Part shown: piece after piece, positions 1,409-27,600 of the stretch
Layout of the letters: each line of letters starts with the position of its first letter
Position numbering within the stretch: position 1 is the stretch's first letter
Assembly (NCBI GenBank): GCA_032158295.1
Contig: CM063257.1
Location: forward strand, 17,700,332 to 17,764,331
Source: Pycnopodia helianthoides
Lineage: Eukaryota > Echinodermata > Asteroidea > Forcipulatida > Asteriidae
DNA length: 64,000 bases
Reading direction: 5' to 3'
Made by a program: the position numbers and the translations under genes
Notes under the pieces: generated by a model
What the model was told of the DNA's origin: nothing
Databases searched by the model: none
The model's input: only the letters and a program-made list of their open reading frames with translations

Positions 1409-1559
1409 CTGAAAGGAGAATGGCAAGGAGAAGGAGTTTTATGTGCTAATTAACATGTGCATTGTCGGCAATGTCGGCAAATGTTTGCCGAATTTTAAAG
1501 AAAACATGACCTCGTCAATTTCTATGTGCTTATGTAATTATTATTTTCACCTTAATGTC

Positions 1560-2755
1560 GGTTGCTGCAAAGATCTACAACAGAGTGATCCTTGACAGAA
1601 AGACCTATCGTCGATCCTTACCTAAGAAACAACCAGGCAGGTTTTCGTGAAGGCCGTGGTTGCGTCGACCAAATTCACATCCTGTGAAGAGTCATGGAAG
1701 GTGCAGCAGCCAACAACTACCCCTGTACACAACCTTTGTAGACTTCCAAAAGGCCTTTGACTCCATCGACAGGAATCTCGTGTTTGCCATCCTTCGTCTC
1801 TATGGTGTACTAGAAGATATCGTGAAGGCCATCCGCATTCTGTATTATGTATCTTCGTTATTGTGACAGAGTACGTGCTAACAATCTCCATCAAAGACTC
1901 AGGTTTCACAACACATCCGAGGAGATCTAGTAGAGCGCCAGCTAAGATACTGAGCGACTTGGAATTCGCAGATGACATCGTACTCTGTGAATCAACCCTA
2001 GAGGGCGCGAGATCACAACTACTAGATGTCTCAGAAGCTGCCAGATCAGTCGGGCTTAAGATACACACTGGGAAAACAGAACTGATGACTACTCAACCAT
2101 GTACAAGCCCAACACTCAAAGGAGAAGTCATCAAACAATCGCAGACTTCAAATATTTGGGGTCAATGATGGCATCATCAGAGAGTGACATACGACCACGT
2201 AGATCTGTTGCATGGGGTGCTTTTTGGAAACTGAGAAGGATATGAAAGTCTTCTACCGTGACTCAAGAGCTAAAACTAAGTATCTTCAAGACAGCCTGCC
2301 TATACCTATTATACTGCTATTTGGCTGTGAGACATGGATCCTTACAAAGCACCTCGCTGCATATCTCAACAGCTATCACACAAACTGCCTCCGAATCATA
2401 CTTGGAATAAAACGTCCCGATAGGATTACCAACACCATATTGTACAACATCAGCCACCAAAGTGCATTAACTCAAACCATCCAAAAACGACAACTCAGAT
2501 GGGTTGGACACATCCTGCGAAAGCCTACCACTGAGCCACTCAACATCTATGCTCTCTACTCCCCATCGCATGGCCGGCGCAAACAATGTCGTCGGCGTCT
2601 ACTATACGCTGAGTACATCGGAAGATTAGTTTCACCGGATGTTCTGCTCTCCCCGCTTGAGATTCGGAGAATAGCACAAGACAGGAGAGAACGGGAAAAG
2701 CTTGTGTCCGCCTGCTGTGCAGCCGACTGATGATGATGATGATGATGATGCGCTT
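1560..2755 (+). mobile_element. RTE-like non-LTR retrotransposon fragment (broken RT and 3' end)
   Basis: Three plus-strand frames together spell a decayed reverse transcriptase. FVDFQKAFDSIDR (about 1738-1776) is the first palm motif. FADDIVLCES (about 1972-2001) is the catalytic ADD box. From 2212 to 2730 the C-terminal part includes GCETWILTKHL and RQLRWVGHIL, ending ...SACCAAD then stop. A short ATG/TGA microsatellite follows at 2730-2752, as is usual at RTE-type 3' ends. Frameshifts and stops separate the pieces and the endonuclease is missing, so it is a dead 5'-truncated copy. It sits where copy B has death domain 2. Confidence 0.8.
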
Positions 2756-3141
2756 ATTTTTATATGGCAAATCAAACAATGATTGACAGCTTTCTCACAC
2801 ATTGTTCTTTCTCTTGAATGTGAACATTTCTAGAAACATTTGATATTTGTCGTGTATAATATAAACTAACAAAAACGAAACTTTTAGATCCAAAACCGTT
2901 GATACATTTTTATTCAATCATTGTACCTGAATCATTTGAAATTGCAAGTCCTACCTTTAAAAGTACTCGAGTACCAGTACCAAGTAGTGAGTACTAGTAC
3001 CACATCACTGGTATAGTCCTTTTTTTATACATCGAGGTATGGAAGAAATGATGACATCATACAAGCTTTTACTACTTTTGCATTAAAAAATGGTACATTG
3101 CCTGAAACATTTCCTTTTATTTTAAAGTTTGATCAATTTCC
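2756..3141. other. Noncoding, intron of copy A
   Basis: A/T-rich sequence without coding sign. A small GTACT/AGTAC-rich patch lies at 2960-3005. Homology to copy B resumes near 3090. Confidence 0.5.
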
Positions 3142-3272
3142 ATGAATCCTGTTTGAGTTCAGAATCCACTTTGTCTCCATTGGAATGATGTTTACTGTCT
3201 GACTTTGGGTTTGTATTGGAAAGTTCGTATGATCTATCTTTTGAAGATTTATTCTTTCTTGCTTTGATGTGC
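3142..3272 (-). pseudogene. Copy A: two linker exons fused by deletion
   Basis: This stretch matches, on the minus strand, the start of copy B exon 11073-11005 joined directly to the end of exon 10589-10503. The ~415-bp intron and about 25 exon bases between them are missing. The acceptor (TTTTAG at 3273-3278) survives. The donor equivalent to AG|GTAAATT in copy B reads AT|GGAAATT, so no GT is present. Translation after the fusion leaves the frame used in copy B. Confidence 0.7.
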
Positions 3273-3879
3273 CTAAAAGAATAGATGGATAATAAATTAC
3301 AATGATGACTTCAGTATCATCAAAAAACGATTCACAAACTGTGTGTTAAAGGATCATCATCCTAACTGTCCTTACGCGTCCCGCCACACAAATTTGCATA
3401 ATCTGCATAAATCCAATATGGCTGCTAAATGTACAGATTTGAATGATTTGTTTAATATCTGTGCTGATTAAACATGGTGTATTGAAGTAGTGAAACAATA
3501 TTCTTAGGTTGTTTGACCTTCTAGTACCATTCTTAGTCTTTAAACTGTTTTTGGTTGAATGATTAATTTGAAGCTCTTATGTACAAACTTTGTGAATAAG
3601 GCTCCATACGGATAAACCAGAAGGTGCAAACTGTTCTTTAGGTAATCGTATAGGTCTCCCAAATGGATGCAATGCTGTTGCACTTGGTGATAATGATGGT
3701 GGTGAAAAAAAAATTGCACATGTCATTCTTAGTTTATTTGTTACTTTAAAAAGTCGAGGTTGAACGACAGTTGTTCAACCGACCGCCTTCTAACCGATTT
3801 TTTTTTCTCTCAAGAACAACGAATGTGTTCTTGCATTCGAAGTAAAAATTATGTTATTTATAAGCTACGAGAAACTCAT

Positions 3880-4011
3880 CAATATGCTGTTTTTTAGGTT
3901 GTGTTGCATCTGGGTCCGACACTGGTGACTTTCCGATTTGTTTGACCGAGCTTTTTGCTGTAGATCTCTTACGTTTGACCGACGTACGCTCAGCTGGGGC
4001 ACATTGTGGAA
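3880..4011 (-). pseudogene. Copy A basic linker exon with broken donor
   Basis: A 132-bp homologue of exon 11898-12029. The acceptor is intact (CCCAG). The donor reads ATGAGT where copy B has GTGAGT. Inside, one extra base and one missing base about 25 nt apart change eight residues (AKSSVKQIGKSP against AKARSNKSRKSP in copy B) and then restore the frame, so the exon still reads through. Confidence 0.75.
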
Positions 4012-4086
4012 CTGGGAACCATTAAATAGCAATAACAACAGGTTTCAAATCAAAAACAAAGAAAACAAAGAAACAGACAAATCCTA

Positions 4087-4567
4087 GGGGTGCACCCCAC
4101 CAAATAATTCCCATAGCACACAGTGCAAAATGCTAAATATTCAAAAATACACAAAAAATACTTGAAACTCTCACAGCTTTTAACTTGAAAAAGAAAATTA
4201 TTTATTGGCTCTTGAACTTTTATTCTCTGCTCAATTTTATATGGGGAGTCCCTGGGCCCGTCGAGTTATTCTCCTTCCGAGTAAAAACACCCCTACACAG
4301 GTGTAATTTTCAAAACGTCCGAGCATCAATCTTGAAAAATGTCCCTACACCTCTCAGCAAATAGGACCTTTTATTTCAGGGCCTATGTCAACCAAAATAC
4401 CTCAAGCTGGAAGTCAACAACCCCCAGGTCACAATTGGGCAACATTTTTACACTGATAACACTTTCTCGGGGGTCTCAAAATCTCTCTAATATAGAATAT
4501 TTTGAGGACCTACAAAAAATTAATGAGCTCGACGCTCTGTTTTCTCCTATTTGGTGGGGTGCACCCC
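4087..4567. mobile_element. TA-flanked MITE (481 bp), copy A only
   Basis: Inverted ends begin GGGGTGCACCCCACCAAATA and finish with the reverse complement. Both ends abut a TA (4085-4086 and 4568-4569), as for Tc1/mariner-type elements. Copy B has an uninterrupted site at about 12100-12106, so the insertion postdates the duplication or was lost cleanly. The first 12 bases of each end are themselves palindromic. Confidence 0.85.
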
Positions 4568-4727
4568 TAGGAACCTTAGGATACTGATGTTAATATTAAC
4601 ATTGTAGTTTAAAATGAACCTGTTATAATGTGTAAAGAGAGTGATACGTAATGCAATGTTTTCTACAGAGAGATAATAAAAACATGTTTTTATATCCAAA
4701 AACAAAATATCCAATCATTCTCATCAC

Positions 4728-4988
4728 CTGGTATCGTTGCAGCTGTATCTCGATGGCCTGTTTGAATCAATGCACTTCTCAACCATTCTCCCGCTTCTCT
4801 GTCATGAGATTGCTTCTTCCACCAAGTAACTAACATCTTAAAAGCCTGTTCTTCCGAGTTCTCATCGTGGCTTTCAAATTTGCCAATCTCTGCTGATGTG
4901 AAACGAAGTTTGGTTGCAAGTTGCTGCCAGTCTGTGCCGAGTTTTCCTGCTAAGTTTCGTAGGAGTGTCTCATCCAATGTTCTTCCAG
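4728..4988 (-). CDS. Exon of copy A: death domain 1
   Basis: 261 bp, identical in length to its copy B counterpart at 13137-13397, with acceptor TTTTAG and donor GTGATG. It encodes a whole death domain: LRNLAGKLGTDWQQLATKL, then FTSAEIGKFE, an acidic stretch, FKMLVTWWKKQ and a final amphipathic helix before GHRDTAATIP. Differences from copy B are mostly substitutions without a frame break. Confidence 0.8.
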
Positions 4989-5194
4989 CTAAAAGTACGA
5001 AATTATAATTCACTAACAGTCGTTTTCAATGGTATGAACTTTGCTTTATATGGAACATCGTGAACATTTTATGTCAACTTTATTAAGGTCTTCCATGTCG
5101 AAGACTCGAAGATCCCCTGGTCCGTAACGAATGAGCATGTTATCTCTGAACAAATATTTTACAAAACATTTTTTGTGATGAACAAAGAAAAATT

Positions 5195-5400
5195 GACAAG
5201 AGCGGGACTTGAACCTGCAATATCCCGATTAACTTGAAGGTGCTCTACCTTCTTTGTTCAGTTTGCCAGTCAGAAGCCAGTCAACCTGTAACTGCCGTAG
5301 CCAGGGATCACACCCAGGTTTACGATTCAACCTGGGAAGCGGCATCAAGCGATTTTATATTTCAAATCCTACGTCATTTTGCTTGCTTCTCGACAGCTAA
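5195..5400 (-). repeat. tRNA-derived SINE, shared by both copies
   Basis: On the minus strand it contains GGTAGAGCACCTTCAAG and the B-box-like GCAGGTTCAAGTCCCGC, as in the 3' two thirds of a tRNA. The same insertion lies at the same place in copy B (about 13583-13790), so it predates the duplication. Confidence 0.65.
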
Positions 5401-5797
5401 ACCACCTGCTAATATCTTCATAGTTTGATTGACTAAAAGTATTTTAATAAGAACATGAGTATTATCAATGAATGTACTCTTCCAAAGTCAAGGGGCACAT
5501 CTTCTTTTGCTTAATTTTTATTTCATTACTAAATGAGGTGGTGTGTGTGTGTGAATAAGGAATGGTTGTTACAAAAGAATGGGATACTGACTGACAGCTC
5601 TGCATTAAAACCATTCCAGTATAAGACTCCATCGTGGAAAACACTCTTTTTTTTAAACACACACAAAACAAACTCAGTTATAACTTGTTTCGCAAAATGA
5701 TCCACCTCAGCTGAACTGCGAGTCTGTTAGTATGTGAAATAAAAAAAAACTAGGTTTAATAAAATACAAATTTTGAGTTTTGCAAAACTTGACTCAC

Positions 5798-5894
5798 ATT
5801 TTGGAGCCCCTCCAAGCAATCCTGGTGCTAGTGATAGAGTAATATTCGTCTCCGGTTGAATGCCAAGATCAAGAAGAGTCAAAGCATCACACGA
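5798..5894 (-). CDS. Exon of copy A: ubiquitin-like domain, C-terminal half
   Basis: 97 bp with acceptor TACCCAG and donor GTGAGTC. It encodes SCDALTLLDLDIQPE then the last beta strand NITLSLAPGLLGGAP. This corresponds to the LSDYNIQKE...LRLRGG part of ubiquitin, including a Gly-Gly that is not terminal. Phase 1 joins it to the death-domain exon. Confidence 0.75.
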
Positions 5895-6412
5895 CTGGGT
5901 ACAAAAGAAGCCTTGACAGTTTACATTCTCGATTTACATTCCAATAAAGGTATACAGTAGTAAAGATCAACGAAGTAGAAGACGATTAACAACTCAATGT
6001 TCAACATTATAAAGACCGACGCCATTAAGCTTGATAGGAATTTAAATGAGGATGAAGAAGATATCACATATCTTGGGAAATTAACAAAATAGCGAAGATA
6101 AGCTAGACTAATTTCCAACACCAATCTTTGAAAAGAGTTTGGCCGAACACAAATCAACATGAAACAGTTATGGCTTTAATAGCAAAGCAGTCAGAGTGGA
6201 AAAGGAAAGTGAAGCAGACCAAAAACGAGGTAAAGAAGAACTGTGGAAATATAGAAAAAGCAAGGTGGATGAAAGACCTGAAATGAAGCCAGAAGAAATT
6301 CACAAGACACGGACAAAATGGAAATAGTGGGTGAAGGCCTGATAGGCGCAGCACAGCGGGAACAGACGAAGAAGAAGAACAACAGGGAGGAAGAAATGTA
6401 TAGAATGTCTAC

Positions 6413-6614
6413 CTTGAACTGATGTTCTCCTGTGTTCAGAGTTTGTAATGCAGGACGAATGCCCAACTTCCTGTAAATTATTTTTTTCAGACTGAAGATG
6501 GTTGTGTTATGATTGAGTCGTAGACAGAGGTTTTTAGGGTTGATGATGGGCGTCTTGATAAAGATCTGTATCATGTGATGATTTTCCTTACGTCTCTGGG
6601 GTGGGACTTTGTCT
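6413..6614 (-). CDS. Exon of copy A: ubiquitin-like domain, N-terminal half
   Basis: 202 bp. It encodes a short basic lead (QRRKENHH) and then MIQIFIKTPIINPKNLCLR, close to the first beta strands of ubiquitin (MQIFVKT), followed by TIFSLKKIIYRKLGIRP, which matches the alpha helix. It ends in phase 0 after HQFK, with donor GTAGAC. Confidence 0.8.
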
Positions 6615-6812
6615 CTGTAGAGGTCGGGAGTAGAATGTTATGTTTTTAATGTTACTATTTCAATTATGCCACCTTGTGTAAACAATGTGGAAACATCTTG
6701 ATCGTAATAAAAGGGCTCAAGAGCTAAACCAAAAATAGTTGCAAACTGAACTCTTTCTTTAAAAACTTTCTTTAAAATGTTTGAAAACTCTTCTAATTTT
6801 GACTCATGGTAC

Positions 6813-7079
6813 CTTTTTACTTGTACTCTGCATTGTTCTTGGTCCGATGATGAATCTGATGTGTTCGTCTCGGTGTACTGAAGCTGTCCGGATGGCCTTG
6901 TCTTATCTGCCAAAGCAGACTTGAAAGCCTCCTGCCTACTCTTTTTGATTTTGTCTTTCATCCCGAACGGTTTTGCCCGGGAATGGTCATAGTCGACCCC
7001 TAAGGTCTTCCGGTCTTCATCCCAGTGTTCCAGAGATGGCAGCGGCATCTTGGTGGTCATCAGCTTCGTGATGCAATCA
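6813..7079 (-). CDS. Exon of copy A: N-terminal segment of unknown fold
   Basis: 267 bp with acceptor TTGAG and donor GTACCA. It encodes DCITKLMTTKMPLPSLEHWD, LGVDYDHSRAKP, a lysine-rich stretch (KDKIKKSRQEAFKSALAD) and an acidic Ser/Asp tail. The sequence is well conserved with copy B (16252-16518) but I recognise no domain. The preceding exon was not located with confidence. Confidence 0.65.
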
Positions 7080-8126
7080 CTCAAGAAAATGAATTGCTTA
7101 GAATTACACAAGAAAGAAAAGTAAATGCATCATCAGTTTGTTTGCATTTTGAGCGATTTCTGTTTTGATTTTAACTATAGGTGACTGGTGAAACCACAAA
7201 CCCATGGCACTGTGGGGAAACTATTGGTGAAAGTTGTTTGCTTTTGATAATGATGTCATAAAAGTAATCAGAATCAGAAAATGAACTGTCTACACTGGTA
7301 CCCGGCCTGTTATGCACGGGCTTAACTTCGACGGGATGGTCTATAAGATCACCCCCCCCCCTCCCCACCCCATGTTGCCAAGTTGTTAAACAACAAACTA
7401 AAATTTACCTCAACAATTAAACAAGCAAAACTGAGAACCATGATCGTCTTCACTCAAAATAACATGCACCACACACTTCATTTCGTATGTGTTTATGTAT
7501 TTGCATGTTATAATTAACTGGCTGGGCGGATTAATACCAGAAAGTGTATGCAGTGCCCCTTATTTTCTTGTAATTCGATTGGCTGAAAGGTTGGTTTGTT
7601 TCTAAGTTCTAAACTAATGTAAAGGGACGGGAAATAGGCCATTCCTCTAATTGAAAAAGGACGAGCATTCACCAAAATACTAAAAGCAAAATCCACGTGA
7701 TGACGTTTACAAATTAAAATGATAATCCTCCTGCAACTAATTTATCCTTTACAAGAAACTAGCTGTACACAGTATAATTAGCACAGCATAGTCACTTATG
7801 TGAAGGGCAGAAGTTCAACACGAGGCTGGCTACAGACATACAAGTTTACAATTATTCCTTATTCAACTACATGTACATGTAGCCCTAAAAATTACAATAT
7901 TTCTCTGATAAAAGATAATTTAAAAACAAAAAATACTCACAGAGAGCTGTAGGACGTTATCCCTACAAAGTAAACGGTATTCGGAGCACCATGCTCCCTT
8001 CAAAATAGAGATAAATACACTTACAGAAAACAAATTTGCTCTGTCTTGCTCAAAGCTATAAAAGGAAAAGAGAGTCAGTCCAAAGGGCGCGCACCCAAAC
8101 TTAACTTCTTATAACAAAAACTAAGC
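7080..8126. other. Noncoding, upstream intron of copy A
   Basis: 7140-7370 and about 7505-7560 are homologous to 17725-18215 in copy B but carry indels and stops, so they are intronic. A C-rich run lies at 7350-7360. Nothing else is supported. Confidence 0.5.
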
Positions 8127-8505
8127 TTAAAGGCACAGTAAATGTTTGGTAATGACTCTGAAAATGAATGGCAATAAAAACTTACTCGGTAAGAAGTACA
8201 GCAGCCTTGGGTAGAATAATGAATTTTGAGAAACTTTTAACTTCGAAGTACTACAGTTATGAAAAATATATCACTTTTTATTCCCAAACATTTGAATCTG
8301 TTTACCCTTTTCAGACTGTGTATTCCTATGGGGAATATTCTTCCTGCGTGGAAATATTCGCTCCGGTTTTTCGGTGATATCTCAAAAAGCGAACACCTTT
8401 TGAAGTGAAATTTTCACAGGTTAGTTTTATTGTATGTACCTACATTTATAATAGGATTAACACAATCAGTAGGCTCCAATTACCAAACGTGTACTGTGCC
8501 TTTAA
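8127..8505. mobile_element. TTAA-type MITE (379 bp)
   Basis: The left end TTAAAGGCACAGTA...GTTTGGTAAT is repeated inverted at the right end (ATTACCAAAC...TACTGTGCCTTTAA) with about 27-bp arms. The internal AAAAACTTACTYGGTAA and the TTTCACAGGTT block recur in the copies at 20728-21092 and 23724-24091. Confidence 0.85.
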
Positions 8506-9562
8506 TACAAAGTTGTATCGGACACTTGAACAGTGTCATGAGATCGCACTTGGGAAACGTACAAATTTTGTACGTATCGTGTTCACTTTCATTGTCACTT
8601 TGTAATGACTCACCAAAGTTTCGCCACATGCCTCCATGTTGAATGGTAACACCGTAACATCTGTACAAAATTAAATAATAATAAGTACTTGTTAATTTCT
8701 CAAATTTACAATCTTTGTAAGCATGCTTTATCAAAACATCATCGAAAATTTGTGTTGATGAGAACTGTTTTGGTTTTCCACGAGGTCCTTCAAAAATTCT
8801 AATTACGAAAAATATTTTAGCTGAGTGAAAGAGAAAGAAGAAAAAGGCCTGTTGTCATAGTAGTGCAATTTTGTTTTTAATATTTTGCCATTTACGTTAT
8901 TGTAATATTTGTTTTTATTCAAGTTTGGTAAAATGATAAAAAAAAACGCTCTCCTCTCTTCTTTATTATACACCAGAACTGAAATTTTATCAACACATTT
9001 CCCCCGATAGAATTAGTTTTGAAGATTAGGCTTTAAAAAGCAAATGAAGTCGACAAAAATTTCAGGTACAGAAATATTTACAACCTCGTTGTTGGAATTA
9101 TAGGCCTAGGTTTTTTTTTTACAACAATATGCTTGAATGTGTATGTCAACGAAATTCTGTATTTCCGAAATTGGTGTTAACTGGGTTCTGACTACGGAAA
9201 AATGGTTTCCGGACAAGGACACTGTGTTTCTACCAAATAATAACAATACTTCAACATGATTCAGTTGAGTCATATCTCTTGTGTAGCTTTTTTTAAACGT
9301 ATTTTGACGTAATAATGTCAGCAAATTACATTATGATTTTGGAGCCAATCACAATTACCGATTTTAAACATTTTGAATTTGTTGAGATTTGCCGAATTGG
9401 TTGCTCAGGTAAAAACGGTAGTCAGTTATAGATCCGTTTCGTTTGAACTGGAGTGTGAGTTACTTCATTCTTTCCCCAAACGAGACCATTAACAGTTTGT
9501 AAATAATAAATGGAAGCAATGTTTATGATAACAATTCAACAAAAAGAGCGGAAAATACTTAC
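8506..9562. other. Noncoding between copies A and B
   Basis: A/T-rich DNA. The copy B homology block starts at about 9447, matching 948 onward in copy A. A 47-bp minus-strand segment at 8614-8660 has an acceptor and donor and a compatible phase but no other support. Nothing else is seen. Confidence 0.5.
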
Positions 9563-9895
9563 CTGTTATTTGTTTGACCATATCATTACTGCCGAGTTTT
9601 ACAAACGACTCCGTCAGCTCGTTGGCTCCCTTTTGGACCGTTTGATCTCTGGCCCAAGTGAAGAACATTTGAAGGGCTTGTTTGATATGATTGTATTCGA
9701 ATCGTTCAACAGGTGCAGCAATAAAACCCAATGAAGTGGCGAGTTGCTTCTGATGTCCTCCAGTGTTCTTAGCTAGGTCTCGTAACGTCCTCTCATCAAT
9801 ACCTAAGGAATCGGATGATGTTGACTGATGTTCTGATGACTGTCTACTGTGAACTTCACCCGTGTTCCCTTCTCTAGGCGATGTGTGTTCATAAC
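9563..9895 (-). CDS. Exon of copy B: death domain 3 (divergent)
   Basis: 333 bp, acceptor CGTTTAG and donor GTAAGT. A Ser/His-rich lead (HSRQSSEHQSTSSDSLG) precedes a death domain whose start (DERTLRDLAKNT) and end (LGSNDMVKQITG) are normal, but the DWQxLA core reads GGHQKQLA and helix 3 is altered. This suggests relaxed or changed selection. Confidence 0.75.
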
Positions 9896-12800
9896 CTAAA
9901 CGGAGAATGGCAACCAGAAGGAGTTTTATGAGCTAATTAACAATATCATCTGCCTGGTCAACAATTTATCCCTAGATTTAAGAACTGCATACTTAATTTA
10001 CGTCACCTAAATAGGAGGGTTTACCTGTTAAGGTTAATGCCAAATCAGTCCGGCCTATAGCGTTGCAGCAATATGTAAGAGTTCGTTTCCCTTGATCGTC
10101 GTTTGTGAATAGAATGTGCCAATCAACGAACATGGTAACTGCCTGTTGCTCCAAGTTGTCTCGGAATTGACGCTCGATTGAGTGTATATGTGATTGACAG
10201 AACCCCAAATAAGTCGCAAGTCGTTGCCAGTCCTTCCCAAGGGATACAGCCATCTTGTGCAAAAAAGTGTCACTCAGCGTGCCTTCAACTGCTGTAGAAT
10301 ATGAACGAAAATCGAGTTTGACATGACAAATTTTCTCAATCAGAAAAATGTATTATAAGCGAGAGGGATTATTATAATAAGTTAGTTTACTTTGAAATAC
10401 CAATTGGTCTATGGAGGAATATAACCATTTATACCATCTAGTTTTCCACAAGTACCACAAAACTGAAATATTTCCTTTGATTTTAAAGTTTGATCAATTT
10501 ACCTGAATCCTGTTTGATTTCAGAATCCACTTTGTCGCCATTGGAATGAGGTTTACTGTCTGACTTTGCAGTTGGACTCCCACGAAGAGCTGAATGAATA
10601 ATAGATTGATCAAACTTAATAAGCATAAATTCTTCAAAATGGGCATGCATATCTGCTTGGATTAATTAGCTGCTCAAAGAAAAATTGGACAATATCAGTT
10701 TGGGGAAAGATAATTCAGTCAAACTTTTATGTTTTAAAGAAACTTTAAACTATTATAAGTTTAATAATTAAGTCAAATATATGTAGGTGTTCAAAATTGG
10801 TTAAGTAGTCGACCAATACAATGAAAACTAAACAGGTTTTATACAAGATTTGAAGTACCACCGTTTTAAAGGAAATAGTTCAAATAATTTGCAATTCTTT
10901 TGACTCTATATTCATTAAAAGAAAAAGTCTCATAAGTTTGACGCTGCGCTGCCTTTCTTAAATGAAATTGATTGTTTAAATACAATTTATTGTGTTATCT
11001 TTACCGTGGGGTTGTATTTGAAAGTTCGTCTGGTCTCCCTTTTGAGGATTTACTCTTTCTTGCTTTGATGGGCCTAAAATAATAGATGAATAATACATTA
11101 CAATGATGAATTCAATATCATCAAAAAACGATTGACAAACTGTGTTACGCAGCGTCCCGCCACACAAATTTGCATAATCTGCATAAATCAAAAATGGCTG
11201 CCAAAAGTACAGATTATAAAGATTTTTTTAATATCTCTGCTGACTAAACATGGTGTATTGAAGTAGTTAAACAATATTCTTAGGTTGGTTGACCCGCTAG
11301 TACCATTCTTAGTCTTTAAACTGTTTTTGAGTGAACGATTTATTTGAATAATTTTATTTCTATAGTTGCCAAAGTTGTTTACTAAGTTATTGAAGCTCTT
11401 ATGTACAAACTATGTAAATAAGGCTTCAATCGTCTCGGATAAACCGGAAGTTGCAAACTGTTCTTTGGGTAATCCTAAAAGCATTATTGTTTAAAATTCC
11501 CCTATAGGTCTCCCAAATGGATGTAATGCTGTTGTACTTGGTGATAATGATGGTGGTGATATGACAGACTTCAAGAAAAAATAAGCCTGTAAGGTTTATG
11601 GGAAGGCAGACTTGACGTGTGTGGATATAATTTCTTCTTGATAAATAACAGCAGTAATCATAATGAAATAAATTGTGTTATGTTTGCCACTTCCTGAGCT
11701 GGGGTAAACCGAATCATAAAAAGTTGCACACACCATTTTTAGTTTATTTGTTACTTTATAAAGACGAGGTTGAACGACAGTTGTTCATCCGACTGCTTTT
11801 CACCGATTATTTTCTCTCAATAAAACAACGAACGTGTTCTTGCAGTTCATTTGAAGAAGAAAACAAATCTGTGATTTATAAGCCACGAGAAACTCACCAA
11901 TATGCTGTTTTTTAGGTTGTGTTGCATCTGGGTCCGACACTGGTGACTTTCTCGATTTGTTTGACCGAGCTTTTGCTGTAGATCTCTTACGTTTGACCGA
12001 CGTACGCTCAGCTGGGGCACTTTGTGGAACTGGGAACCATTAAATAGCAATAACAACAGGTTTCAAATCAAAAACAAAGAAAAAAAGAAACAGACAAACC
12101 CTAAGAACCTTAAGATACTAATGTTAATATTGATTACGCTGTATTCATGCCATCCGAATTACTACTTTTGCTAACGAACAAAAATCTTAAAATTCTCCTT
12201 TAAGCGATATTCAATCATAATTATGTTATACGATCACGGTATGCTCCATTACTCGTTACTGAAGCATTCCTTTCAAGACAAGAACAGATTAGCAAATTGA
12301 TGAATTGTTTTTATTCACAATGTTAAGTCATGTAATGTTATTTCGGCATGGTGTCAATTATTGGTAATAAAGCAAACCAAAAAACGAAGTACTCTTGTTG
12401 GTGCTTTGGCTGTGGTGCATTATCACAGTATGCGCGTTTTCAGAAAATTTAAACAAAAACAGGTTCATTTTTTCACTGCAAATTTTAAATTTTGAATATT
12501 TTTCGAATAAAATTCTCTTTATTAACCGAAATTGCTATCAAACAAGATTTTAAAGCAACAAATTTTTCGTTTACCAGTTTCTCTTCGAAATTGTGAAAAA
12601 TAATTGATTTGATAAATAAGTTTCATTTGGCAAGGCTAACAATTCCAATATCTATAAAATATAGTTATTAGTTAAAAATATATTTAAACAATTTATATAA
12701 ACACAAATACAGTTTCACAAGAAGACGATTTGTTATAGGAACGAAGGATCAACAAATCTACCACTCCTCTTTTCGGCTGGGTTTAAGGAGCAAAGGACAA

Positions 12801-14068
12801 ATATATCCCCTCACTTAATTTCGATATTATGATGCAATAATATTTTGGAGTTTAAAATGTGGCCAATTGTTTTGCTAACGAAAGGGTAAAAATTAAAAGA
12901 CCGTTAAAAATATTTTTTTAAATGCACCAAATTCTTATTTTGTTCTTGCAAAAACCAGCATAGTTTTAACATTTTAAAAAACAACTTAAAAAAACTTGTT
13001 ATATATATCAAAAAAAGTGAAAAAAATTAAACATTGAGTTTAAAATGAACCCGTTTAACATGCAATGTTTTCTACAGAGAGATTATAAAAATATGTTTTC
13101 ATAACCCCCCCCAAAATATCCAATCATTCTCATCACCTGGTATCGTTGCAGCTATATCTCGATGGTCTGTTTGAATAAATGCACTTCTCAACCATTCTCC
13201 CGCTTCTCTGTCATGAGATTGCTTCTTCCACCAAGAAACTAACATCTTAAAAGCCTGTTCTTCCGGGTTCTCATCGTGGCTTTCAAATCTGCCAATCTCT
13301 GCTGATGTGAAACGAAGTTTGGTTGCTAGTTGCTGCCAGTCTGTGCCGAGTTTTCCTGCTAAATTTCGTAGGAATGTCTCATCCACTGTTCTTCCAGCTA
13401 AAAGCGCGAAATTATAATTCACAAACAGTCGTTTGCAATGGTATGAACTTTGCTTTATATGGAATATCGTGAACATTTTATATCAACTTTATTAAGGTCT
13501 TCCATGTCGAGCATCCCAGAACGAGCATGTTATCTGTGACCAAATATATTTTAAAAAACATTTTTGTGATGAACAAAGAAACATTGATCAGAGCGGGACT
13601 TGAACCTGCGATAATCCGATTACCTTGAAGGTGCTCTACCTTCATTGTTCAGGTTGCGTAACTGCCGTAGCCAGGGATCACACCCAAGTTTACGATTTAA
13701 CCTGGGAAGCGGCAGCAAGCGATTTGATAATTCAAATCCTACGTCATTTTGCTTGCTTCTCGACAGCTAAACCACCTGAACTATCTTCACAGTTTGATTG
13801 ATTAAAAGTGTTTGATAAGAACATGAGTATTATCAATGAATGTACTCTTCCAAAGTCAAGGGGTATTCTTTTGCTTAATTCTTATTTCATTACAAAATGA
13901 GGTGGTGTGTGTGTGTGTGTGAGTTTGTAGTGACATTCAAACCGTGGACTTACAACAAAAGGGACAATAGGTCCACGTTTGCTATCACAAAGGAAAACAA
14001 TGAGGTCCACGTTTGTCAGGACAAAGAGTTGAACAAAGGAGGGTCCACGATTGCAGGTCATTACACAC

Positions 14069-14125
<57 letters not shown>

Positions 14126-16518
14126 TGTGTACACACAGAAGGGCATATGTGGGGTCCTGACAACAATGGAACAATGGACCCCACAAGGTCATTTCAATAG
14201 GAACAATTGGGCCCCACAAGGGAATTCTTCAGAAAAGGGAATAATAGAACAACAATAGCAGTACCCCACAAACCGGATCCGTAAGGATGTGTGTGTGTGT
14301 GTGTGTGTGTGTGAATAAGGAATGGTTGTTACAAAAGAATGGGATACTGACTGACTATTTAAGCTCTGCATTAAAACCATTCCTGTATAAGACTCCATCG
14401 TGGAAAACACTCTTTTTTTAAAAACACACACAAAACAAACTCAGTTATAACTTGTTTCGCAAAATGATCCACCTCAGCTGAACTGCGAGTCTGTAAGTAT
14501 GTGAAGAAAAAAAATAGGTTAATAAAATAAAAGTTTTGAGTTTTGTAAAACTTGACTCACGTTTTGGAGCCCCTCCAAGCAATCCTGGTGCTAGTGATAG
14601 AGTAATATTCGTCTCCGGTTGAATGTCAAGATCAAGAAGAGTCAAAGCATCACACGACTGGATACAAAAGAAGAAGAAAAGTTCATACAAGATTACGATA
14701 GAACTATTATTATTGAAACCTTGACAGTTTACATTCTCGATTTACATTCCAATAAAGGTAAACAGTAGTAAAGATCTATGAAGTAGAAGACGATTAACAA
14801 CTCAATGTTTAACATTATAAAGACCGACGCCATTAAGCTTGATAGAAATTTAAATGAGGATGTAGAAGATATCACATATCTTGGGAAATGAACAAAATAA
14901 CGAAGACAAGCTAGACTAATTTCCAACACCAATCCTTGAAAAGAGTGTTACAATTTGTTTGGCCAAAAACAATCAACATGACAGTTCAAAAACATCACAT
15001 TAAGAGCAAGGAATAAATTCAATACTGTAGGATATGGAGTTCGATTGTTTCAGAAAGAATACAATTAGCCACCTTTGCATGGCTTTTATAGCAAAGCAGT
15101 CAGAGTGGAAAAGGAAAGTGAAGCAGACCAAAAACGAGGTAAAGAAGAACTGTGGAAATATAGAAAAAGCAGGATGGATGAAAGACCTGAAATGAAGCCA
15201 GAAGAAATTCACAAGACACGGACAAAATGGAAACAGTGGGTGAAGGCCTGATAGGCGCAGCACAACGGGAACAGACTAAGAAGAAGAACAACAGGGAGGA
15301 AGAAATGTATAGAATGTCTACCTTGAACTGATGTTCTCCTGTGTTCAGAATTTGTAATGCAGGACGAATGCCCAACTTCCTGTGAATTATTTTTTTCAGA
15401 CTGAAGATAGTTGTGTTATGATTGAGTCGTAGACAGAGGTTTCTAGGGTTGATGATGGGCGTCTTGATAAAGATCTGTATCATGTGATGATTTTCCTTCC
15501 GTCTCTGGGATGGGGCTTCGTCTCTGTAGAGGTCAGGAGTAGAATGTAATATTTTTAATGTTACTATTTCAATTATGCCACCTTGTGTAAACAATGTGGA
15601 AACATCTTGATCGTAATAAAAAGGCTACAGAGCTATCCAAAAAATATTTTCAAACTGAACTCTTCCTTAAAAAAAACACTTTGAGTTTCTGTATCAGAGT
15701 TTTTTTCAGACGCAATAAGATTAACTTACTTTGTTATAACACTGAAGGAATCAGTCATGACGGCTTGGTTAACCCTGCGCTGCACTATGACCTTCAAAAG
15801 CGTTTATCCCCCCATCGCAAGGTCATCTGCAGTACGGTGTGAAATTGCGCATAACACTAATTTGGCTGCTCACAAACTCTTCTAACATGGTACCATTAGA
15901 CTCAGAATCGTTCATTCAATCCCAAGAAGAAGAAAAAAAAATCAAAAAAAGTGAAAATTCAATGTTTGTTTATTTTAAGTAGTAAACGGCGCCCAGATAA
16001 GAATGTCCCCACTGGACAACTAATTATTACTTAAAACAAATACCTCGTCTTCTTGCAAGTGGTGTGTGCTGCACACGTGTGGAGCATGCACTGAACATTG
16101 TATGAAAGTGCCATATATAGTATAGTCAGTTCCATTGACAAATTAGGAATCCGTGAATGGGTATCGTGGCTTTATTGGCCTCAGCCGCCTCTGACGGCAG
16201 AAGTTTCGTGAACTGATGGTTGAAATCTCTACTAATTTGGACTTACGGTACCTTTTTGCTTGTACTCTGCATTGTTCTTGTTCCAATGATGAATCTGGTA
16301 TGTTCGTCTCGGTGTACTGTAGCTGTCCCGATGGCTTTGTCCTATCTGCCAAAGCAGACTTGAAAGCCTCCTGCCTACTCTTCTTGATTTTGTTTTTCCT
16401 CTCGACCGGCTTTGCCCGGGAATGGTCATAGTCGACCCCTAAGGTATTCCGATCTTCATCCCACTGTTTCAGAGATGGCAGCGGCATCTTGGCGGTCATC
16501 AGCTTCGTGATGCAATCA
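9563..16518 (-). CDS. Copy B: ubiquitin-like plus triple death-domain protein (partial, nine exons)
   Basis: Minus-strand exons: 16518-16252, 15523-15322, 14657-14561, 13397-13137, 12029-11898, 11073-11005, 10589-10503, 10291-10025 and 9895-9563. All internal junctions are AG/GT and every phase matches, giving 571 consecutive residues. Order: unknown lysine-rich N segment (1-89), ubiquitin-like domain (about 103-188, starting MIQIFIKT and ending LLGGAP), death domain 1 (about 195-272), basic linker with an NLS-like KRKRSTAKARSNKSRK, Ser/Lys linker, death domain 2 (about 378-460, GKDWQRLATYL) and death domain 3 (about 493-571, lacking the usual Trp). Death domains form homotypic complexes in apoptosis and NF-kB signalling, and ubiquitin-like domains bind ubiquitin readers or enzymes; a signalling adaptor is inferred. 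First and last exons are not identified. Confidence 0.75.
10025..10291 (-). CDS. Exon of copy B: death domain 2
   Basis: 267 bp, acceptor TTCTACAG and donor GTAAAC. It encodes a complete death domain: LHKMAVSLGKDWQRLATYLG, QSHIHSIERQF, VTMFVDWHILF and a final helix with AIGRTDLALTLTG. Copy A has no counterpart. Confidence 0.8.
10503..10589 (-). CDS. Exon of copy B: Ser/Lys linker 2
   Basis: 87 bp, acceptor CATTCAG and donor GTAAAT, phase 1 to phase 1. It encodes a hydrophilic linker (LRGSPTAKSDSKPHSNGDKV...) without a fold. A damaged homologue lies in 3142-3272. Confidence 0.65.
11005..11073 (-). CDS. Exon of copy B: linker 1
   Basis: 69 bp, acceptor ATTTTAG and donor GTAAAG, phase 1 to phase 1. 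It encodes PSKQERVNPQKGDQTNF and a few more polar residues. Confidence 0.6.
11898..12029 (-). CDS. Exon of copy B: basic NLS-like linker
   Basis: 132 bp, acceptor TTCCCAG and donor GTGAGT. It encodes PQSAPAERTSVKRKRSTAKA and RSNKSRKSP, a dense Arg/Lys patch that could act as a nuclear localisation signal. The role is inferred from composition only. Confidence 0.7.
12130..13036. other. AT-rich insertion specific to copy B
   Basis: In copy A, GTTAATATTAACATTG runs straight on into GTTTAAAATGAACC. In copy B about 905 bp of very A/T-rich DNA separate these blocks. No inverted ends or coding sequence were recognised. Confidence 0.55.
13137..13397 (-). CDS. Exon of copy B: death domain 1
   Basis: 261 bp, acceptor GCTTTTAG and donor GTGATG. 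It encodes GRTVDETFLRNLAGKLG then TDWQQLATKLRFTSAEI, FKMLVSWWKKQ and a closing helix. This is the most canonical death domain of the gene and is joined in phase directly to the end of the ubiquitin-like domain. Confidence 0.85.
13583..13790 (-). repeat. tRNA-derived SINE (copy B ortholog)
   Basis: The same insertion as 5195-5400. The minus strand shows GGTAGAGCACCTTCAAGG and a B box GCAGGTTCAAGTCCCGC. A 27-bp block near the 5' side of copy A is missing here. Confidence 0.65.
13903..14313. repeat. Copy B insertion bounded by and containing (GT)n tracts
   Basis: Copy A has one short GT tract (5540-5553) at this point. Copy B has GT tracts at 13903-13922, 14069-14121 and 14288-14313 with unique sequence between them, including three GGTCCACG motifs. 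Slippage plus insertion between two GT tracts is the simplest reading. ORFs across it are artefacts of the dinucleotide repeat. Confidence 0.8.
14561..14657 (-). CDS. Exon of copy B: ubiquitin-like domain, C-terminal half
   Basis: 97 bp, phase 0 to phase 1. It carries LTLLDLDIQPETNITLSLAP and then GLLGGAPK. The glycine pair aligns with the C-terminal Gly-Gly of ubiquitin, but the chain continues into death domain 1, so it is an integral fold and is unlikely to be conjugated. Confidence 0.8.
15322..15523 (-). CDS. Exon of copy B: ubiquitin-like domain, N-terminal half
   Basis: 202 bp, acceptor CTCTACAG and donor GTAGAC. QRRKENHHMIQIFIKTP begins the beta-grasp, and SLKKIIHRKLGIRPALQ matches the helix and the following strand of ubiquitin. 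The first base completes the arginine codon left by the previous exon. Confidence 0.82.
16252..16518 (-). CDS. Exon of copy B: N-terminal segment of unknown fold
   Basis: 267 bp, acceptor TTGAG and donor GTACCG. It encodes DCITKLMTAKMPLPSLKQWD, LGVDYDHSRAKP and KNKIKKSRQEAFKSALAD with an acidic Ser-rich end. Both copies keep the frame, which argues for coding. No family was recognised. Confidence 0.7.
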
Positions 16519-20409: not shown

Positions 20410-20736
20410 TTAATCTTCGTTTAACTCTGTCTTGCGCCGAAACAATTGGCTTCGGCTGTACATACTCTCCTTGTTTGACACGCTCATTGTGACACGCTCA
20501 TTGTGACACCTTTGCTTGTTTACATGTTTGCGTGCCCAACGAACCAGCATGTTCTTGTACCTTTTTAGTGTTTTCGATTTAATCTGTTTTTCTGTCGCAT
20601 TTGTTTTCGCATTAATTGTGTTTGTACTGATTGCTGCATGGAGCTTATTCTTCAGTGTTTCATTCTCTCGGAGAACTTTGTCTTGTTTAAATTCTGAATA
20701 CAGAATCTTAAATGCCCAGTCATCGACATTGGACAC
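20410..20736 (-). CDS. Hypothetical charged ORF, doubtful
   Basis: An open stretch of 108 codons on the minus strand that begins within a MITE end and has no ATG at its first codon. It is rich in Lys, Asn and Glu, with a short helix-forming segment (KVLRENETLKNKL) and a basic patch (KRYKNMLVRWARKHVNKQR). An AG just upstream in the MITE end could act as a splice acceptor. No family was recognised, and it may be a chance ORF or a fragment of an unrelated element. Confidence 0.2.
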   Translation of the reverse strand: MSNVDDWAFKILYSEFKQDKVLRENETLKNKLHAAISTNTINAKTNATEKQIKSKTLKRYKNMLVRWARKHVNKQRCHNERVTMSVSNKESMYSRSQLFRRKTELNED

Positions 20737-21092
20737 TTTTGGTAATTACTCAAAATAATTGTTAGCATAAAAACTTACTTGGTAACGAGCAACGGAGAGC
20801 TGTTGATAGTATAAAACATTATGAGAAACGGCTCCCTCTGAAGTAATGTAGTTTTTGAGAAAGAGGTAATTTCTCACTCCAATAATAACAGACTTCAGCG
20901 AAGCCGTTTAGTATGCATCTGAAAGCACACAAAGTAATGCAACAATGTGTCTTTTCTTCCATTATTCTCTTGCAAATTCGATGGCAAATTGAGCCCAAAT
21001 TTTCACAGGTTTTCTATTTCATGCATATGTTGGGATACACCAAGTGAGAATACTGGTCTTCGACAATTACCAAACGTGTCCAGTGCCTTTAA
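20728..21092. mobile_element. TTAA-type MITE, left end eroded
   Basis: The right end reads AATTACCAAACGTGTCCAGT then GCCTTTAA. The left end is recognisable as ATTGGACACTTTTGGTAATT. The internal blocks (AAAAACTTACTTGGTAACGA, GAGAAACGGCTCCCTCTGAA) match the elements at 8127 and 23724. Confidence 0.8.
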
Positions 21093-22551: not shown

Positions 22552-23384
22552 TGATTTGGGTATCATTGGGGTCAGTGTTGTGTTATTGTGTCATGATTTG
22601 GGTATCATTGGGGTCAGTGTTGTGTTATTGTGTCATGATTTGGGTATCATTGGGGTCAGTGTTGTGTTATTGTGTCATGATTTGGGTATCATTGGGGTCA
22701 GTGTTGTGTTATTGTGTCATGATTTGGGTATCATTGGGATCAGTGTTGTTATTGTGTCATGATTTGGGTATCATTGGGGTCAGTGTTGTGTTATTGTGTC
22801 ATGATTTGGGTATCATTGGGGTCAATTTGTTTACTGTGTCATGATTTGGGTATCATTGGGTCAGTGTTATGTTATTGTGTCATGATTTGGGTATCATTGG
22901 GGTCATGTTGTGTTATTGTGTCATGATTTGGGCATCATTGGGGTCAGTGTTGTGTTTTGTTCATGATTTGGGTATCATTGGGTCAGTGTTGTGTTATTGT
23001 GTCAGATTGGGTATCATTGGGGTCAGTGTTGTGTTATTGTGTCATGATTTGGGTATCATTGGGGTCAGTGTTGTGTTACTGTGTCATGATTTGGGTATCA
23101 TTGGGGGTCAGTGTTGTGTTACTGTGTCACGATTTGGGTATCATTGGGGGTCAGTGTTGTGTTATTGTGTCATGATTTGGGTATCATTGGGGTCAGTGTT
23201 GTGTTATTGTGTCATGATTTGGGTATCATTGGGGTCAGTGTTGTGTTATTGTGTCATGATTTGGGTATCATTGGGGGTCAGTGTTGTGTTATTGTGTCAT
23301 GATTTGGGTATCATTGGGGTCAGTGTTGTGTTATTGTGTCATGATTTGGGTATCATTGGGGTCAGTGTTGTGTTATTGTGTCAA
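22552..23384. repeat. 42-bp minisatellite, about 20 copies
   Basis: The unit runs TGATTTGGGTATCATTGGGG, TCAGTGTTGTGTTATTGTGT, CA. Most copies are exact, with 1-4 base indels near 22740, 22830, 22960 and 23000. Because 42 is a multiple of three, overlapping ORFs persist through it, but these have no other coding support. Confidence 0.95.
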
Positions 23385-24617: not shown

Positions 24618-27600
24618 CTAAAAAAAACACACCATTAGACTACAGGTATTGTACAAACTCAATCTACCATGTTATACTGTTATACCGTATTACAGGACCA
24701 GGGGTCAATTTCACAAAACTCTTCCTAACTTAGGACTAGTCCTAGGCAATGCTAAGAGATAGGACTAGTCTTAAGTTATGACCAGTCAGTCATATCTCTT
24801 AGCATTGCCTAAGACTAGTCCTAAGATAGGAAGAGCTTTGTGAAATCGACCCAGAAATAGTGTCCCAAAACCAAAAATATTTCTCTCTTTTTGAAAATTT
24901 GCTTTACTTTTAGGAGGATGTTTGAAAATATGAAATGTGAACATTAGTAAATTTCTTTAAAAGATTTGTTTTGAAAAACACTTAACTACAGGTCTTTATT
25001 TAATTTGGGGGTTAATGCTAGAGACCTTCCCATTTCCTCAAAAATCCACTAAAGTACTGTACTTGGGAAATTAACATGTAAATATTTGGACTTGGAAAAT
25101 ATCTGTATGCTTGTTCAAAAATTACAAGTGTCTAATCAATATTATTAAAATGGTGTAAAGAGTCATTTTGGTTGATCCTCTTTCAGAGTGAAATTTGAAA
25201 CATGACATCAATTTTTGGATATAAAAAATAAATGGGTTTGTATACAGAGGAATTTTTGCACTTGAAAGTCAAAAGTTCAAACTCAATGTCGTCTTGATTG
25301 AATATCATCAATATTCAGGAATAAACTGAATGTAAAGACCACATATTTGAAATGTGACGACATCGACCATTTTAAGATTTTGACAAAAACTGCCCAAATG
25401 AAGAGAATCAAACTTAGCATTTAACAGTTTTAGTGTGAGGTTTACAGAGACTTGGTGTTGTTTTTAAAATTTTCATAAAGGCCTCTGTCTATTAGAAAAT
25501 TAGTCATAAAACTTAATTTGACCTTGGAGCCTCTCTTTAAAGATTGCGTACATTACAAAGACTATCATTAAAATGGAAATGATGAAACAGCACGGCTTTG
25601 AAAGTTCTGTCCTCCAAGAATTGATGCTTTCAATGTTAATTTGATACTTTTATACATAAAGGGGCTGTGTCTTCATGATCTAAGCAGGCATGTGGCAGTA
25701 CATGGACTTAAAGAACTCTCACCAAGTTACTGCATACATGTACACATGTAGTTAGCCTTGATATCAAGGCTGTGTAGACAAGTACTCTAGCTAAAACCAT
25801 AAAGCAAGGATACTAAAACCTCAGCCGCCGAATGCGATACAACCCCAGTCCCCCGACTGACTCTAAAAAAAATAGCACACCGCACCTCTCACCATGCACA
25901 CACACAGCGCCTGTACACAGCCCCACACACACACCGCTATTGTCCACACACTGCTATCGCCCACAATCCTAGCCCGTGAGCCGTCAGGCTCACAGCCTTG
26001 ACGATCTTGTACACTTCCGGGTCTTATGTGTTTCCTTGTTTTTCTTCGCAAATCCGTGGAAAATGGGGGGGTGAGTGGATATTCAAATACCATAACCGCA
26101 AGACCCGGAAGTGTACAAGATCGTCAAGGCTGTGAGCCTGACGGCTCACAGGCTAGGATTGTGGGCGATAACGGTGTGTGGAATAGAGGTTTGTGTGGGA
26201 CTGTGGAAACGAGCGTTTGTGTGCTTCCTTGGGTGTGAGAGCGTGCGGAACAGGAGTTGCATTGCATTCGGGCATCGCATTCGTACGGCTGTGGTTATTC
26301 ACATTTTTAGCTTTATAGTACATGTAAGCAAACTACATGTATTACACAGCCTTGCAATCAAGGCTACTGCATAGTAAGCACCCTCCCTAAGAATCATATA
26401 AGGGGGGGGGGGGCGTGCACAGTAACTGGGTGTACAATGTACAGCCACAGGCCTGCCTTGATCATGACAACATGGCCCCTTTTAAATAATATCTGTTTAA
26501 ATATTTATAAACCACAAAATGGCAGCCATGAAAATGGAAGCGGGCTTGAACAAGGAACTGGTTTATGTTTCTTACTTGGCCTTTATAATGTAGGAAGTCA
26601 TGTGCGATAAAATGAATGGGTTTGATGAATTTAGTACACAGGAATATTTTCCACTGTCCTGTAGCGTTCTCTTACTCTCTATTTCTGTGAGTCCATGGGA
26701 TTCACTTGTTAACCACAGTAAGACATCGAGCATGCTTTCTGTACATCGAGCAATAAAGCGTATAAATGGCCTGACATCACCGGCATTAGCTTGCTTAATA
26801 GTTTCATAATACTCATGTCTTTGAGTCACTTTGATTATTATTGGAGGATACCCAGCTCGCATTAGAATCAAGTTCATCAATAATCGAGAAGTTCTTCCGT
26901 TTCCGTCAAGAAAGGGGTGAATATAAACAAATTTGTAATGGGCAAGAGCTGCAAATTCCACAGAGTGCATTTCGTTTGTTTCTTCCGATGTTAACCACTG
27001 TACAAACTCTTGCAAGAGGACTTCCACTTCTGTTGGAGCAGGGGGTATGTGTGATCCCACAAATACTTGAGTCCTCCGGATTTGTCCCGCTTCGATCGGA
27101 TCAACATGGCCGAGTACACGCCGATGGATCTCAAGAATGTCCTGCACTGTGATGTCACCAAATTTATTCATGAGTGTGTTGTTGATGAATTGTAACGCAG
27201 AGCTCATCCCGATTATTTCATTGTGTTCTAAGATGCTCTTTCCTTGTACGGCCATACCCGTCTCCATAATACTCCTCATCTGTTCTAGAGATAAAGTGTT
27301 CCCCTCGATCGCCGTTGTGTGGTATATATGCTGGTAGAACATCTCCTGCTGGGCTCGATGTAACGCTCGACTGTGCGACGGAACGTCCAGAAACTCATTC
27401 CGCTTGGAGTCGATCTGATTCAATATCCTCTGATCGATTTCTTCAACGATTTCAGCTGTTCTTTTAAGATTGATGAGTGCTTTGCTGTGAGATGCGTTAT
27501 TCAATAATGCACACGTGTATAAATAATCCGCTTGCAGGATATCTTTCTCTTCTATGAACTCTCCGTACTCGTTGAGGGCGTCGGAGTGGTTTGGATCGAG

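Follow-up and report, generated by a model that had tools for sequence, protein, structure and literature searches.

A ubiquitin-like domain in the effector end of a probable sea-star NLR class, as seen in a NACHT-less gene copy of Pycnopodia helianthoides

Introduction

NLRs are generally held in an auto-inhibited state by their LRRs, oligomerise through their NACHT domain and act by clustering their effector domains. Their signal normally passes through a death-fold domain and nothing else, and the ubiquitin on their complexes is attached by separate enzymes. Here we describe a chain of exons from the sea star Pycnopodia helianthoides, called copy A below, that encodes a ubiquitin-like domain (Ubl) ahead of three death domains. 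It lies in a stretch of 64,000 nucleotides analysed at its full length (the window; C15:17700332-17764331, where C15 is contig CM063257.1 of assembly GCA_032158295.1 and other C numbers denote other contigs). Judged from its sequence, copy A is almost certainly the front half of a member of a multigene NLR family, in which a conserved N-terminal part (the N segment), the Ubl, one to three death domains, a NACHT domain and LRRs succeed each other in that order.

Several described systems come close to this arrangement. Receptors with a death domain, NACHT and LRRs are termed NLRD in PMC12909245. In a figure legend of the same paper, UBQ is listed as one of the domains that occur in bona fide NLR architectures of the sponge Dysidea avara. 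According to passages of PMC8195603, lineage-specific immune expansions of TRADD-N in marine invertebrates acquire Ub or Ub-ligase domains. The literature searched, to which subscription papers did not belong, yielded no account of a class joining Ubl, death domain, NACHT and LRRs or of its diglycine; this class is absent from the passages of PMC11508797, PMC13133943 and PMC7159879, and those of PMC2575513 contain no match to a ubiquitin term.

An NLR family around and beyond the window

A NACHT-LRR exon starts at C15:17699661, on the same strand as copy A and about 0.7 kb below window base 1. Its frame (locus L009) is open for 1419 amino acids and matches Pfam NACHT (7e-20) and LRR_8 (6.7e-36); the NACHT part, C15:17698541-17699638, showed 65% identity in a search with an Asterias rubens protein. 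The next exon upstream of it, 1.7 kb away, is the last death-domain exon of a second and partial copy in the window (copy B), which ends at 1061 with the donor GTAAGT.

The same arrangement recurs in this genome. Both Ubl exons were found upstream and on the same strand at 10 of the 13 NACHT loci fetched, the Ubl being followed by one to three death domains, and LRRs occur in all four NACHT-LRR exons scanned (L009, L010, L017 and L022). The domain order given above is drawn from these two observations. A fourteenth NACHT locus, C4:17.653 Mb, stands outside the set of 13. A search of the 479-Mb genome with the A. rubens protein returned at least 61 matches, with at least 12 N segment places and at least 14 NACHT loci at 65% identity or more, and three further N segment places, two of them partial, are present in the fetched DNA.

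The LRR part of the L009 exon (5102-9358 of that locus, minus strand, outside the window) forms a ladder of similar repeats at an exact spacing of 52 amino acids, with one motif marked 14 times; this points to a recent expansion of repeats in the sensing end. The FIIND domain, by which NLRP1 and CARD8 cleave themselves, scored above its Pfam cut-off of 25.8 in two of the four exons (L009 and L010; 27.7 and 44.2 bits). It was set aside as repeat noise because these scores sum short scattered matches inside the LRR repeats, of which the best spans 23 residues and none passes alone.

Protein homologues were sought among 5.8 billion proteins by searches that need shared five-residue words, so that more distant Ubl-bearing NLRs could be missed. 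With the 566-residue translation of copy A as query (proteins of 311-990 amino acids, E up to 1), three clusters matched among the best 7996 word-sharing candidates scored, two of them named Asterias. The first is the uncharacterized A. rubens protein LOC117302377 isoform X3 (P0001; 939 amino acids, nine member sequences), and the other two are an uncharacterized protein of Asterias amurensis and an unnamed protein of 441 amino acids. In P0001 and the unnamed homologue P0003, Ubl, Death and NACHT lie within one protein. The first 265 residues of P0001 matched only P0001 itself among 4413 candidates of 516-1643 amino acids. A profile of four rows recovered, among its best 7997 candidates scored, the same three clusters and a protein with Death and NACHT from the brittle star Amphiura filiformis (P0004).

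The exon chain of copy A

Nine minus-strand exons, from 16499 to 9563, join in phase into 566 amino acids with zero stops, and a tenth follows (positions are those of the window):

16252-16499, minus strand: E1, ATG and conserved basic N segment, 82 amino acids (PSLKQWDEDR...RAKPVERKNKIKKSRQ)
15322-15523, minus strand: E2, a basic stretch followed by the beginning of the Ubl (MIQIFIKT...GIRPALQ...HQFK)
14561-14657, minus strand: E3, second part of the Ubl, ending in GLLGGAPK
13137-13397, minus strand: E4, first death domain, phase 1-1 (Pfam Death 3.6e-10)
11898-12029, minus strand: E5, basic linker (KRKRSTAKARSNKSRK)
11005-11073, minus strand: E6, linker exon, phase 1-1
10503-10589, minus strand: E7, linker exon, phase 1-1
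10025-10291, minus strand: E8, second death domain (Pfam Death 2.6e-11), 93% identical to the C4 paralogue presented below
9563-9895, minus strand: E9, third death domain (Pfam Death 0.002 and 18.6 bits when scored by itself, under the cut-off)
8536-8660, minus strand: E10, the 5' part of a NACHT exon, cut short (...EACGETLVSHYKVTMKVNT) and followed by 13 codons of unrelated sequence and a stop

The predicted product consists of the basic N segment, a short basic stretch, the Ubl, the first death domain, a basic linker of three exons, and the second and third death domains. E1 is 78% identical to P0001 over residues 1-79 and 76% over residues 2-83. The exons start in phases 0, 2 and 0, and then in phase 1 throughout; since all from E4 onward are symmetrical (phase 1-1), each could be gained, lost or skipped with the frame unharmed.

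An earlier note, made from the letters of this DNA, had proposed nine exons with canonical and phase-matched junctions. The nine exons and their phases were recovered, whereas the E1 donor is the weak AG/GTACCG (the slash marks the junction) and a tenth exon exists. AG/GTAC is kept in 12 of 12 copies examined. A better-looking donor five bases further on, CC/GTAAGT, used with an AGAG acceptor, would also stay in frame; two facts led us to reject it, namely that the homologues have AKRDEA or ARRDEA at this junction and that two of the 12 copies lack the second GT. The succession that the note had described, of an N segment, a Ubl ending in LLGG, a basic linker and three death domains, is indeed what the exons encode. 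The note was aware of no family with an internal Ubl directly ahead of a death-domain tandem, and the arrangement is indeed rare, with three clusters found among the candidates scored, the named ones being from Asterias.

Past the GTAAGT donor present at 9563, the model extends in phase into E10. The acceptor of E10 (TTGTACAG) is in phase 1, and 80 of 94 alignment columns are identical to the intact NACHT exon of L009. The similarity breaks off at GAACAC, leaving about 27 NACHT-exon codons, and a stop is reached 13 codons on. Beyond this remnant copy A has neither a NACHT domain nor an LRR C-terminus, and its N-terminal death-fold effector is present. When NACHT was sought elsewhere in the window by tblastn (three queries, E up to 20, best 30 rows), the 19-residue piece in E10 was the only sensible match. 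The window matches of the LRR part of P0004 fall within a satellite of 54-bp units. The DNA itself documents the exon chain and its family, the loss of NACHT from copy A and the presence of an intact NACHT-LRR exon beyond the window.

An AATAAA is visible by eye near 8431 on the minus strand, a motif frequent by chance in AT-rich DNA. The intronic stretch 13560-13800 resembles, by eye, a tRNA-derived repeat, and a similar stretch occurs in copy B; ARAGORN reported zero tRNA in the window, and the Rfam and tRNA scans of the whole window were empty.

Copy B and the tandem on C4

Copy B is a tandem partial copy of copy A:

1061-7060, minus strand: copy B as a whole
6813-7060, minus strand: E1'
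6413-6614, minus strand: E2'
5798-5894, minus strand: E3'
4728-4988, minus strand: E4'
about 3880-4011, minus strand: E5', donor lost
about 3145-3272, minus strand: remnant of fused E6 and E7
1061-1408, minus strand: death-domain exon

The two copies form a tandem duplication, and the segments that blastn aligns, about 72-95% identical, span 3877 of 6937 bases in copy A and 3810 of 6000 in copy B. E5' runs to a stop, and so does the fused E6/E7 remnant, out of frame. Copy B has no exon for the second death domain, in whose place (about 1580-2750) pieces resembling reverse transcriptase were recognized by eye. These lie on the plus strand and are broken (FVDFQKAFDSID, FADDIVL). In E5, two compensating one-base indels separate copy A from copy B, and the C4 copy is B-like here. 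The same tandem exists at C4:22.45-22.47 Mb, where an A-like and a B-like copy precede one NACHT-LRR exon.

Death domains and the ubiquitin-like domain

Pfam Death recognizes three stretches in the 566-residue model (3e-25). Taken alone against the cut-off of 22.6 bits for PF00531, E4 (40.3) and E8 (43.9) pass and E9 (18.6) falls below; a local death-domain profile matches E9 at 3.6e-32, E9 itself being one of its eight rows. The remainder of copy A matches the death domains of PIDD, CRADD, RIPK1 and THOC1 among PDB sequences. Structure models were those of relatives of the window copy. In the AlphaFold model of P0001, two death domains are confident (blocks 59-96) and the third is moderate (about 50-78), and Foldseek aligned this model with the TNFR1 death domain at a TM score of 0.77. 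A weak match to the local death-domain profile at 20413-20745 on the minus strand (E 0.009; no Pfam match at E 0.01) is probably due to chance.

The Pfam ubiquitin family is matched above its cut-off of 25.4 bits by P0001 (26.7) and P0003 (29.7), and below it by P0002 (21.1). A phmmer comparison of the copy A Ubl with PDB sequences gave 5e-30 for chains of nine ubiquitins, a value summed over the repeats, about 4e-7 to 1e-6 for di-ubiquitins and about 0.009 for single wild-type ubiquitin. The Ubl region of P0001 is modelled, at low confidence, as beta-beta-alpha-beta-beta-beta, and ubiquitin and death domains are the top Foldseek matches of this model.

At the end of the domain, LLGG is found in 12 of 12 Ubl exons examined in this genome; it is internal, and AP follows it in all 11 copies whose frame is intact there (L020 has lost one base just after GG, as seen by eye). 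Four of the six LLGGAP codons (the two Gly, Ala and Pro) carry synonymous changes and none a replacement; LLGGAP is also common to P0001-P0003. The surface of the domain differs from that of ubiquitin: Ile44 is replaced by Asn, Tyr or His and Val70 by Ser or Thr, neither Arg72 nor Arg74 is conserved, and LLGG is preceded by two extra residues. In ubiquitin the Ile44 patch is the contact for many readers and many hydrolases, and its loss argues against a plain ubiquitin mimic.

Selection on the exons

When copy A is set beside its C4 counterpart, all eight of the exons E1-E8 align over their full length with no gap and keep their AG and GT splice sites. Over E1-E9, the ratio of replacement to synonymous rates (dN/dS) is 0.58, with 48.2 changes at 366.7 synonymous sites against 101.8 at 1292.3 replacement sites (synonymous excess, p = 0.0018), and dN is well below dS in E1, E2, E4 and E8. 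Seven indels fall in 1685 aligned exon bases (4.2 per kb) and 60 in 3583 bases of introns and flanks (16.7 per kb; p = 6e-5), and the mismatch rate is 0.072 in exons and 0.116 outside (p = 6e-7). Chance open reading frames were rejected because indels and mismatches are both less frequent in the exons than in the intervening DNA.

Across paralogues, pooled dN/dS is 0.32 for the N segment (10 copies), 0.43 and 0.30 for the Ubl parts in E2 and E3 (12 copies each), 0.55 for the first death domain (10) and 0.48 for NACHT (11). The dN/dS values leave out copies covering less than 85% of the part, first death-domain matches below 50% identity, and stop codons.

Weighing the readings

The favoured explanation is that these genes probably form a lineage-specific class of sea-star NLRs with a Ubl in the effector end, copy A being either a NACHT-less adaptor or the 5' module of a full receptor. 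The earlier note had suggested that the product could link ubiquitin signalling to a death-domain scaffold, and it may do so. What the note missed is that these domains form the N-terminal end of an NLR family whose NACHT-LRR exon lies just outside the window, and that a second copy stands in tandem at 7060-1061. A stand-alone scaffold as the ground state of the family was rejected because the relatives are NLRs.

A number of observations nevertheless weigh against the favoured explanation. Three of the 13 NACHT loci have no Ubl in the fetched DNA, namely C18:4.147 Mb, where a partial N segment and no Ubl was found, and two on C6, where neither was found in the stretches fetched. The profile search that the note had suggested gave its three Death stretches, whereas E2-E3 alone reached only 20.4 bits with Pfam ubiquitin (PF00240; E 0.00045), under the cut-off of 25.4. 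Structure prediction, also suggested there, returned the death domains of relatives, two confident and one moderate, and beta-grasp elements in the right order for the Ubl of two relatives, but at pLDDT of about 33-67; single ubiquitins were matched by the P0001 model at TM scores of about 0.47-0.58 (normalized by target), with a best E of 0.0023, and not one of the Foldseek matches, death domains included, reached 0.001. The pooled dN/dS values come from non-independent pairs, include some broken-frame copies and may be affected by gene conversion. Copy A compared with copy B over E1-E4 and E9 gives a dN/dS of 0.81, dN (0.41) exceeds dS (0.28) in E5 between copy A and C4, since one short segment there follows a different reading frame, and E9 of the C4 counterpart contains a stop and has lost its donor. 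The loss of NACHT could itself mark a decaying remnant. Taken with the constraint on the exons shared with C4, these data indicate that the N-terminal chain has been held by selection, but copy A may be weakly constrained now.

The last points also feed the view that copy A is a relic of tandem duplication and NACHT loss which makes no protein. The NACHT that ends after about 27 codons, the high dN/dS against copy B, the disturbed frame of E5 and the damaged E9 on C4 all speak for it; we consider it unlikely, since 566 codons are open across nine exons whose splice sites are present, indels are four times less frequent in the exons than outside them, and E1, E2, E4 and E8 have dN well below dS against C4. 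Another possibility, to which we give somewhat less than even weight, is that copies A and B form one transcription unit in which E1-E8 or E9 of copy A skip E10 and the first exons of copy B and reach the death-domain exon of copy B and the NACHT-LRR exon. The uniform 1-1 phase from E4 would permit such a full receptor with more death domains, E5' of copy B, its donor lost, continues into a stop, and on C4 the second copy is without an N segment start while its NACHT-LRR exon is open for 1631 amino acids. In the window, by contrast, copy B has its own ATG and open E1'-E4', and copy A ends in a truncated exon of its own that contains a stop, with the AATAAA near 8431.

A different role for the Ubl must also be considered, in which a hydrolase cuts after LLGG, so that a host enzyme frees a modifier made of N segment, Ubl and GG, or a pathogen de-ubiquitinase trips the receptor. 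Fusions of ubiquitin with ribosomal proteins and of FUBI with S30 are precedents for released Ubl modifiers, and LXGG is a cleavage motif of coronavirus papain-like proteases. The invariance of LLGG (12 of 12) and AP (11 of 11) under synonymous change only, its sharing with P0001-P0003, and the position of LLGGAP exactly between the Ubl and the first death domain are in keeping with processing. A receptor precedent exists in the protease tripwire of NLRP1 and CARD8, whose sensing of proteases is published (PMC7857732, PMC10249858). FIIND above cut-off in two of four NACHT-LRR exons would add to the parallel, were its scores not taken as repeat noise. The Ubl-wide dN/dS of 0.3-0.5, with most residues conserved, means that LLGG may merely belong to the fold or a linker; Arg72, Arg74 and the Ile44 patch, on which many hydrolases rely, are missing, two extra residues precede GG, and the internal diglycine would become terminal only if cut. 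We therefore rate processing as doubtful. Its more specific form, in which LLGG/AP is an integrated bait and a cut by a de-ubiquitinase or Ubl protease, or the release of N segment-Ubl-GG, switches the NLR, appears less probable still. If true, an NLR would detect when the ubiquitin system itself comes under attack, and copies that lack NACHT would serve solely as baits or as precursors of a modifier.

A working model and its significance

To return to the sea-star NLR class with a built-in Ubl, its members may be pictured by analogy with NLRs generally. The LRRs would keep the receptor off and sense, the NACHT ATPase would oligomerise it, and the clustered death domains would nucleate a death-domain complex with downstream death-domain adaptors. 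An array of Ubls would then be held at the edge of this complex, where the Ubl would act as a docking module fixed in the effector end, and not as a free modifier, with a surface that differs from that of ubiquitin. That the Ubl is a non-conjugated docking domain of this kind is, for us, a tentative assignment that falls slightly short of an even chance. Copy A is predicted, with good confidence from its sequence, to be transcribed as joined exons. It could end at the truncated NACHT exon, giving a receptor-less adaptor or regulator (N segment, Ubl and three death domains) that would join the complex through death-domain contacts, or its exons could be spliced on to the last death-domain exon of copy B and the NACHT-LRR exon. 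Both outcomes are allowed because the exons are all symmetrical, and we regard a NACHT-less product and a composite transcript as evenly balanced.

A Ubl built into the effector end of an NLR, with a diglycine constant across the paralogues examined, makes the role of a fused Ubl in inflammasome-like assembly testable. The combination may tie ubiquitin biology to innate immune sensing, and it would again show how freely marine deuterostomes rebuild NLRs. Even with a plain docking Ubl, copy A illustrates the origin of NACHT-less side products at such loci.

Other features of the window

26572-27732, minus strand: long open frame with Pfam Fic (1e-24) and TPR matches, which we take to be most like the AMPylase FICD/HYPE
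22552-23383 and 49181-50585: minisatellites with units of 42 bp and 38 bp
52643-61806: satellite with a 54-bp unit in 171 copies, open on both strands for up to 836 amino acids

The satellite frames stay open because 54 is a multiple of three, and their 18-residue period leads to false LRR matches.

Comparison with known systems

The closest relatives of copy A are A. rubens LOC117302377 and the A. amurensis protein, which belong to the same family and share the N segment, the Ubl with LLGGAP and the death domains. Copy A differs from these proteins in having lost the NACHT domain, which P0001 possesses, in its three death domains and in its linker. The brittle-star protein P0004, an NLRD, resembles the sea-star family in its N-terminal death-fold effector and in matching Death, NACHT and LRR in that order, its LRR score being below cut-off; it differs in lacking a match to the Ubl and in being just 24% identical to P0001, over 37% of the latter. 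What sets the sea-star family apart from NLRD is the presence of the N segment and the Ubl and, in many cases, of more than one death domain. The NLRs of Dysidea avara are alike in that the figure legend lists UBQ among their domains. The TRADD-N expansions involve a domain distinct from the death domain of copy A, and the combination of Ubl, death domain, NACHT and LRRs is absent from the passages of PMC8195603. DD-NACHT-LRR receptors, in short, are already known, and the Ubl-bearing sea-star class appears from its sequences to be a variant of them that the literature searched does not describe.

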